Source of the DNA: Megasphaera massiliensis | Lineage (GTDB): Bacteria; Bacillota; Negativicutes; Veillonellales; Megasphaeraceae | Direction of reading: 5' to 3' | Assembly (NCBI RefSeq): GCF_000455225.1 | Contig: NZ_HF954537.1 | Coordinates: 1,147,416 to 1,187,328, forward strand | Length of the DNA stretch: 39,913 nt | Part shown: in pieces, positions 17,710 to 19,219 of the stretch | How the letters are laid out: each line of letters begins with the position of its first letter | How positions within the stretch are numbered: position 1 is the first letter of the stretch | Notes under the pieces: model-generated | The model's input: only the letters and a program-made list of their open reading frames with translations | Told to the model about the DNA's origin: nothing | Databases searched by the model: none | Program-made: the position numbers and the translations under genes

Positions 17710-18153
17710 ATGTTCAAAAAAACGGCCAGTCTTGCCGTCTCCTTCTTCTTTTTGTTGACCCTTTTCGCATCGGCGAATAATTTTCTCGACAACAATCCCC
17801 GCTTCGTCCAAGTCGGCCACGACGATACGACGGAATCGTACATCGACATGAATACGATTCAATCCGTTCGCTACGATCCGCCGTACTACATCATCCGGGC
17901 GACGGTCGTGACGTACGATTATGCCAACAATACCTTACAAGGATATGATAACAATTTTTTCTACAATTTTAAATCCCAATCGGTAAAAACGCAGACCTTA
18001 GGCGACGTCGGCTACGACCCTGCCGGTAACATCCTGTCTACCCTGGCCCTGGCTAACCCGGAAGTCAAGACGACAGACCGCCTCTCGGCCAACGGCAATG
18101 CAGCCAATCGTGCCTTCCGAGCCTGCTACAACATGAATTTTTTCCAAGAATAA
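17710..18153 (+). CDS. Secreted protein, possibly adhesin-E-like
   Basis: A 147-residue exported protein of unknown function. The N terminus is a clear signal peptide: KK, then a hydrophobic run to about residue 20, then LFASA before NNF, with cleavage probably after ASA. The mature part is beta-rich, with YIDMNTIQSVRYDPPYYIIR and ATVVTYDYANN. This resembles the pattern of small surface proteins annotated as surface-adhesin protein E-like in Negativicutes, but I cannot confirm that match. There is no lipobox. ATG 17710 has AAGGAAG 8 nt upstream. It is followed after 23 nt by the membrane-anchored exonuclease-fold protein, probably in one transcript. Confidence 0.72.
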   Translation: MFKKTASLAVSFFFLLTLFASANNFLDNNPRFVQVGHDDTTESYIDMNTIQSVRYDPPYYIIRATVVTYDYANNTLQGYDNNFFYNFKSQSVKTQTLGDVGYDPAGNILSTLALANPEVKTTDRLSANGNAANRAFRACYNMNFFQE

Positions 18154-18176
18154 TACACTGAAAAGGATTGATAGTT

Positions 18177-19136
18177 ATGGATTCCATCATCCACATCGTA
18201 ACCACCGTCGCTACCATCATCTTCATCGGCGCCGTTCTCTACTCCCTGACGTCGGCCCTTAGAAAAAAGCGGCGCAAGGCAAAGTATGAAAAAGACCTGG
18301 TGACCAAGGTCCACGTAAAAGTCGACAATCTCCACCAATACGACATCAAACCGGAAAAGGGCTACTACAAGTATCCCCTTGTCGAAAAGGGAAAACTCCG
18401 CCGCTTCCCCCAGCACTTTACGAGTATCGCCATCGAGCTTGCCAATGAGCAGCCTTACTCCATCTGTCTCCTGGCTCTGGCCGAATTTGATAAGGGCGAG
18501 ATAAAAGACACGCGGTACTTCTACATCCGTCCGCCTGAAAACAACTTGTCCGCTACGGGAGGCCGACATCGCTGGGAAGACTTGTCTAAAGCCGATGAGT
18601 TCGGCGAATACTGGCAGGCCGGTCTTGAAAAACTCATCGAAGGCAAGACCCTCATCGCCCACAACGCCCCCTTCGTCCTGGGCTGCCTGACCCATGCCCT
18701 TCACATTTACGGCATCAAGGCCCCGTCCTTCCGCTATGCCGACACGATGGAAGCCGCCAAAAAATACTACCATTTCTCTTCCAATAAGATCGAAAACATC
18801 TGCGATGAAATGGACATCAAGACCGAGGAAGGCAATCTTCTCAGCCAGGCCATCGGAATTGGGAAATTCTTCCTGGAGGCCAAGAAAGACTATCCTCTCT
18901 ACCTGCCGTCTCTGACCTACATCGAAAAAGAACCGACCGATGACGATCGAAAAGCGGCCTACATCGCCGCCGTCGAACGAGAAGAAGGTACGCCGGAAGA
19001 AATGGCGGCCCCGGAAAAACCGGATTTGGCTCTCGTTAAAGACCTGGTCGACACGGGATGCATCACCGCGGGAAAACAATCCGGCACCTACTACGCCGTC
19101 GACAAAGGCCTTGCTCTATTAGAACAGGCCGACTGA
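18177..19136 (+). CDS. Membrane-anchored degenerate DEDDh exonuclease-fold protein
   Basis: A 319-residue protein with an N-terminal membrane helix (about residues 4-27), a basic stop-transfer segment (LRKKRRKAKYEK) and a DnaQ-like exonuclease fold (about 78-240). Fold landmarks remain: FTSIAIELAN at 81-90, AHNAPF at 161-166, and DTMEAAKKYY leading to KIENICDEMDI. Catalytic residues are mostly gone: the first Asp of exo I is Ala85 (Glu87 kept), the exo II Asp is Val167, and the exo III His and Asp fall at Gly219 and Gln224. A C-terminal segment (about 275-319, LVKDLVDTGCIT...YYAVDKGLALLE) looks like a small winged domain. Start ATG 18177 is preferred over TTG 18168 because AAAAGGA is too close to the latter. 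Nuclease activity is unlikely; nucleic-acid binding or scaffolding is inference. Confidence 0.72.
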   Translation: MDSIIHIVTTVATIIFIGAVLYSLTSALRKKRRKAKYEKDLVTKVHVKVDNLHQYDIKPEKGYYKYPLVEKGKLRRFPQHFTSIAIELANEQPYSICLLALAEFDKGEIKDTRYFYIRPPENNLSATGGRHRWEDLSKADEFGEYWQAGLEKLIEGKTLIAHNAPFVLGCLTHALHIYGIKAPSFRYADTMEAAKKYYHFSSNKIENICDEMDIKTEEGNLLSQAIGIGKFFLEAKKDYPLYLPSLTYIEKEPTDDDRKAAYIAAVEREEGTPEEMAAPEKPDLALVKDLVDTGCITAGKQSGTYYAVDKGLALLEQAD

Positions 19137-19165: not shown

Positions 19166-19201
19166 AAAAAAGCGCTGTCTTTGAAAGACAACGCTTTTTT
19201 T
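19166..19201. terminator. Bidirectional terminator
   Basis: A hairpin with GCG/CGC and TGTCTT/AAGACA arms (one mismatch) is flanked by AAAAAA on the left and TTTTTTT on the right, so it can end transcripts from both directions. It separates the plus-strand exonuclease-fold gene from the convergent rpsD gene. Confidence 0.88.
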
Positions 19202-19219
19202 ATCATACTCAAATAGTTC

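Follow-up and report, generated by a model that had tools for sequence, protein, structure and literature searches.

The gene studied here lies in a window of 39,913 nucleotides from Megasphaera massiliensis (the window being the whole stretch of DNA that was analysed) and encodes a protein of 319 amino acids, a putative membrane-tethered pseudo-exonuclease (Table 1). An intact frame preceded by a good ribosome-binding site had been noted from the letters alone, and both observations were sustained: the ORF runs over 319 codons from its ATG, behind an AAAGGA. The orthologue set comprised 15 sequences, 45–97% identical. Megasphaera records, at 93–97% identity, are the closest relatives that bear a name. 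The ATG start is kept in the orthologue alignment, and similar ribosome-binding sites precede the orthologous genes. An antisense ORF of 317 aa (18126–19079, minus strand) is broken in most orthologues and was set aside as a mechanical ORF.

Table 1. Features of the pseudo-exonuclease gene and its surroundings (positions in the window; residues of the encoded protein).
Feature	Position	Strand	Basis
Upstream secreted/surface-type protein, 147 aa	17710..18153	+	signal peptide seen by eye; neighbour, probably co-transcribed
Ribosome-binding site AAAGGA	18162..18167	+	9 nt 5' of ATG; read from sequence
CDS, membrane-tethered pseudo-exonuclease, 319 aa	18177..19136, stop included	+	ATG start; orthologues
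Predicted N-terminal transmembrane helix, residues 3-25	18183..18251	+	hydropathy in 15/15 orthologues; model helix 2-42
Basic juxtamembrane stretch RKKRRKAKY, residues 29-37	18261..18287	+	charge analysis
Conserved linker, residues 46-78 (HVKVxNLHQYDIKPxxGYYKYP...RRFP)	18312..18410	+	alignment; low pLDDT
DnaQ/RNase T-type (DEDDh) exonuclease-fold domain, ~residues 73-252	18408..18914 (residues 78-246)	+	profiles, model, structure comparison
Exo I remnant A85-I86-E87	18429..18437	+	D-x-E lost at D1; alignment
Region in place of H-G-I loop motif, ~residues 126-132	18552..18572	+	alignment vs relatives
Exo II remnant AHNAPFV, residues 161-167	18657..18677	+	V167 replaces Asp; alignment
Exo III remnant G219...Q224	18831..18848	+	His + Asp lost; alignment
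Likely C-terminal winged-helix domain, acidic, ~residues 253-317	18933..19127	+	separate model, fold and profile comparison
Inverted repeat resembling a terminator, 5' of rpsD and 3' of the CDS	19166..19202	.	by eye; scan did not list it

The gene for the 147-aa protein is found directly 5' of the pseudo-exonuclease gene in 11 of the 15 orthologous loci; it is missing in three, where the pseudo-exonuclease gene is kept alone, and one locus lies at a contig edge. The 147-aa protein has no Pfam match and has paralogues elsewhere in some genomes. A strict partnership between the two proteins was rejected on account of the three loci without it. Nearly all orthologous loci have divergent molybdopterin/cobalamin genes on the upstream side, and on the downstream side the neighbour varies. 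The locus is ancestral, and the neighbours of the orthologous genes indicated no single pathway. Membership in a defence system was rejected too, as only generic DEDDh-type models and the candidate PDC-S48 match the exonuclease region and the neighbours are cobalamin and housekeeping genes. A phage origin was set aside because the matches were solely to generic phage exonuclease-subunit families. Nor is the protein a stand-in for an absent RNase Y membrane anchor, since RNase Y is present in the genome.

The exonuclease fold and its active site

Single-sequence profiles placed residues 80–239 in the RNase_T/DnaQ superfamily, with a match to Pfam RNase_T (PF00929) above the gathering score (E 6e-7). 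NCBIfam PRK06195 was matched at E 4e-20 and 72.5 bits, short of its curated equivalog cut-off of 373 bits. Direct sequence search with the single protein against solved structures gave no match; the profile of the 15 orthologues led to PolC and Pol III epsilon among them. An AlphaFold2 model built from the 15 orthologues (mean pLDDT 81) aligned over residues 63–253 with DEDDh exonucleases, among them PolC (Z 17.4, rmsd 3.1, 163 aligned), S. aureus DinG (Z 16.8), E. coli epsilon (Z 15.2, rmsd 2.6, 145 aligned), ExoX (Z 14.0) and TREX1 (Z 14.0). The PF00929 match, together with Z scores of 13–17 to epsilon, PolC, TREX1 and RNase T, identifies an RNase H-like exonuclease fold. The DnaQ/DEDDh assignment, which had formed the basis of the original prediction, is secure.

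The PRK06195/NF004844-type DnaQ-like exonucleases (PF00929) share with this protein the fold, the F-x-x-x-(D)-x-(E)-x-A-N/T start, a K/R-P-P motif and the A-H-N segment of exo II. They are mostly soluble proteins of about 190 aa, in which D-x-E, the exo II Asp, the exo III His-Asp and the HGI loop are all present, whereas the pseudo-exonuclease has one catalytic residue left and has a membrane helix, a linker and a winged helix in addition.

The active site was compared with that of 34 intact relatives, all of which carry Asp, Glu, Asp, His and Asp at the catalytic positions. The M. massiliensis protein has Ala85, Val167, Gly219 and Gln224, exactly the residue numbers given beforehand, and keeps Glu87 as its sole remaining catalytic acid. 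Across the orthologues, the expected uniform loss was found for D1 and the exo II Asp, and not for the other positions. All 15 have Ala or Ser at position 85 and Val at position 167, where all 34 relatives have Asp, so that neither the D-x-E of exo I nor the Asp of exo II is present. Position 87 is Glu in 10 of the 15; in the others it is Asp, Thr, Val or Ser. In exo III, the His is found in six orthologues, and the last position is Glu in six and Asp in none; the His-Asp pair is thus lacking throughout. The residue following the exo I Glu is Thr in all relatives and Leu in 14/15 orthologues, and the core around the former active site appears to have been repacked with hydrophobic residues. 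An intact DEDD set elsewhere in the protein, named at the outset as an observation that would speak against a dismantled site, was not found in the alignment.

All 34 relatives have an H-[GQ]-I motif in a loop, and no member of the pseudo-exonuclease family has it. In epsilon, this loop takes part in nucleotide contact, so its absence suggests that part of the substrate site has been lost as well. Judged from the alignment, the metal site is gone. Since catalytic and substrate-contacting residues are both missing, nucleic acid is very probably no longer cut, and we infer with high confidence that the protein is nuclease-dead.

Membrane anchor, linker and C-terminal domain

An N-terminal membrane helix and a basic linker had been proposed, and both exist in all 15 orthologues. 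A single N-terminal hydrophobic segment (Kyte-Doolittle mean 2.0–2.5 in 15/15) is followed by a stretch of net charge +3 to +7. Because this juxtamembrane stretch is basic and the N-terminus near-neutral, an N-out/C-in topology is predicted, which would place the folded part in the cytosol. The conserved linker, of low confidence in the model, is a candidate partner-binding segment.

The segment originally described as wing-like turned out to be an entire predicted domain. Residues 243–319, modelled separately (pLDDT 78), adopt a winged-helix layout (H13-23, H31-35, H42-51, a hairpin and H67-76) with three helices and a wing. Structure comparison gave Z scores of 7.5–9.8 to MarR, PadR and Sso10a proteins (Sso10a-2, 9.8; MarR, 8.7), with Foldseek E-values of 0.016 or worse, and 12/14 members showed a weak match to HTH_45 (best E 0.003). 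The winged-helix fold is therefore likely, as far as the model can tell. Such a fold does not imply DNA binding, and the acidic pI makes binding doubtful: the domain has a pI of about 4.2 in 13/15 members, higher in the two whose C-terminus carries an additional tail, and a net charge of −6 to −13. The exonuclease domain is acidic too, with a median pI of 4.8 versus 5.8 in the relatives, and the conserved columns of residues 70–246 comprise 3 basic versus 11 acidic ones. The orthologues of the sister genus, L011:1501-2571 and L013, are longer at the C-terminus by a basic tail of about 36 residues.

Selection, descent and distribution

Whole-gene dN/dS was 0.06–0.08 in five close pairs. By part, values in the same pairs, which are rough as the segments are short, were 0.03–0.08 for the exonuclease domain, 0.00–0.07 for the linker and 0.09–0.22 for the C-terminal domain; the close pairs gave no signal of relaxed selection in the exonuclease domain or linker. 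The frame is open in all 15 orthologues. Random decay among orthologues, a further observation held in advance to be contrary, was not seen, by dN/dS and by the replacement of both key acids in 15/15. The original view that this is not simple decay was thus confirmed, anchor, linker and C-terminal domain being conserved as well. The protein is a vertically kept pseudo-exonuclease under strong selection.

Full-length matches were obtained in 13/15 Megasphaera genomes and in both genomes of the sister genus, that is in 15/17 Megasphaeraceae. Among 380 other genomes of the class, no full-length homologue was found; matches there were limited to the exonuclease region and linker (best E 8e-32). 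In 398 genomes sampled from the phylum, no further match was obtained at E 1e-24. Of the two Megasphaera genomes without the gene, one is just 78% complete. The other (G011; 1.6 Mb) is 99% complete and has lost it cleanly from an otherwise conserved locus, so whatever role it has is dispensable in some species.

In the tree, the family is a single clade with a support of 98/100 and a long stem, which fits one single loss of activity before the two genera split. The best match outside Megasphaeraceae is L037:1444-2496 (G062:C9), from another family of the class. It resembles the pseudo-exonuclease in its N-terminal membrane helix, its linker and its 'ETANAQPYSIC' start, but its DEDDh set is complete and its C-terminal domain is a SAP domain. 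A descent of the pseudo-exonuclease family from such an anchored enzyme was considered; the sister position of the two had a support of 46/83, with long branches.

Possible roles at the membrane

The absence of an intact DEDD set and the strong constraint on orthologues support the reading of this protein as a pseudo-nuclease, and the binding, sensing or scaffolding role first suggested for it is a reasonable one. The proposal we favour, at about even confidence, is a nuclease-dead DEDDh protein anchored in the inner membrane and serving as a protein-interaction scaffold in the cytosol. A single N-terminal helix would anchor the dead exonuclease, leaving the folded part in the cytosol, where the dead domain might act as a platform for protein interactions. 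Exonuclease fold, acidic winged helix and flexible linker would together hold one or more partners at the membrane. These partners could plausibly be nucleic-acid enzymes; the platform itself would neither cut nor grip a 3' end.

The main rival, which we judge unlikely though a good deal stronger than the others, is a nucleic-acid tether: RNA or DNA would be bound by the dead domain, possibly helped by the winged helix, and so kept at the membrane, in the way that Exuperantia binds mRNA. Dead DEDD exonucleases are already known in eukaryotes, and the two documented proteins with a dead DEDD fold, Exuperantia (PMC5597691) and the PXL domain of PML (PMC12934764), are reported to bind nucleic acid. 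Both resemble the pseudo-exonuclease in having a DEDD fold with a lost metal site, followed by a small helical domain. They differ in that this domain is SAM-like, while that of the pseudo-exonuclease is winged-helix-like and so departs from the Exuperantia-type EXO-like plus SAM-like arrangement, and no membrane anchor is mentioned for them (PMC5597691, PMC12934764).

The predicted winged helix would suit nucleic-acid binding, and so would a second dead DnaQ-like domain encoded in the same genome (L052; L118:6092-7213, G000:C1), with relatives L053-L055 and L096-L101. This L052 family is likewise membrane-tethered, with a DEDDh set that is not intact and a lost HGI loop, but its helix follows the exonuclease domain, a further C-terminal domain comes after, and an RNase-like NYN-LOTUS gene is linked to it. 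With a threshold of E 1e-5, the family was found in 11/15 Megasphaera genomes, including a strongly diverged copy in G011. In 9 of the 10 genomes with a well-conserved copy, and also in G011, the gene lies directly 3' of a NYN plus OST-HTH/LOTUS gene; at L097, no NYN gene was found within the stretch examined. A survey of 2010 reported bacterial NYN (LK-nuclease)-LOTUS genes without a conserved neighbourhood linking them to other known RNA-processing systems (PMC2848206). The two membrane-tethered types may belong to a system for membrane-associated nucleic-acid handling, one of them coupled genetically to a NYN-LOTUS ribonuclease and the dead domain serving as a bacterial docking module, a speculative idea that we hold to be rather doubtful. 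A test for a common origin of the two families gave a p-AU of 0.476.

The scaffold is favoured over a nucleic-acid binder because both domains are acidic, conserved basic residues are few and the HGI loop is lost, net charge being a weak guide to binding. The same points argue against the mere retention of nucleic-acid 3'-end binding, and topology alone accounts for the membrane-proximal basic stretch.

In an improbable alternative, the winged helix would act as a membrane-bound transcription regulator with the dead exonuclease domain as its sensor. The MarR/PadR/Sso10a and HTH_45 matches point that way, against which stand the acidity of the domain, the Foldseek E-values and the lack of a conserved target neighbour. 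The layout is not that of ToxR/CadC, where a cytosolic winged helix at the N-terminus precedes a membrane helix and a periplasmic sensor; here the membrane helix occupies residues 3–25 and the winged helix is C-terminal. A rearranged active site might draw on the several acidic residues and histidines that do not vary within the family, for example H162, H173, E144, D189 and E192; this is very improbable, since H162, N163 and D189 often occur in intact DEDDh relatives too, without being metal ligands there, and no in-register substitute exists for D1 or the exo II Asp. Least probable of all is a decaying, functionless relic, to which the loss of the active site and the two genomes without the gene might point and which the dN/dS, the intact frames and the conserved parts contradict.

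Vestigial exonuclease domains and membrane-anchored ones are each familiar. In Taq and Bst DNA polymerase I, the vestigial 3'-5' exonuclease domain keeps the DEDD fold after the loss of its metal ligands, but it sits in a polymerase, while the pseudo-exonuclease is a stand-alone membrane protein. TREX1 is, like it, a membrane-anchored DEDDh fold, but is an active enzyme and tail-anchored. Our search of the open-access literature turned up no paper on dead DnaQ proteins in bacteria, let alone on a stand-alone membrane-tethered family of them, and none on membrane-anchored exonucleases in Megasphaera. Annotation by PF00929 would name the protein an exonuclease, very probably wrongly. Together with the L052 family beside its NYN-LOTUS gene, it hints that Negativicutes may handle RNA at the membrane. 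A lineage-specific bacterial DEDDh nuclease would here have become a non-catalytic membrane protein and then come under strong selection, which makes it a tractable system for asking what use bacteria make of a dead exonuclease fold. Intact relatives are available for comparison, and a paralogue of the intact PRK06195/NF004844 type is found in the same genome (G000:C5:85196-85654).
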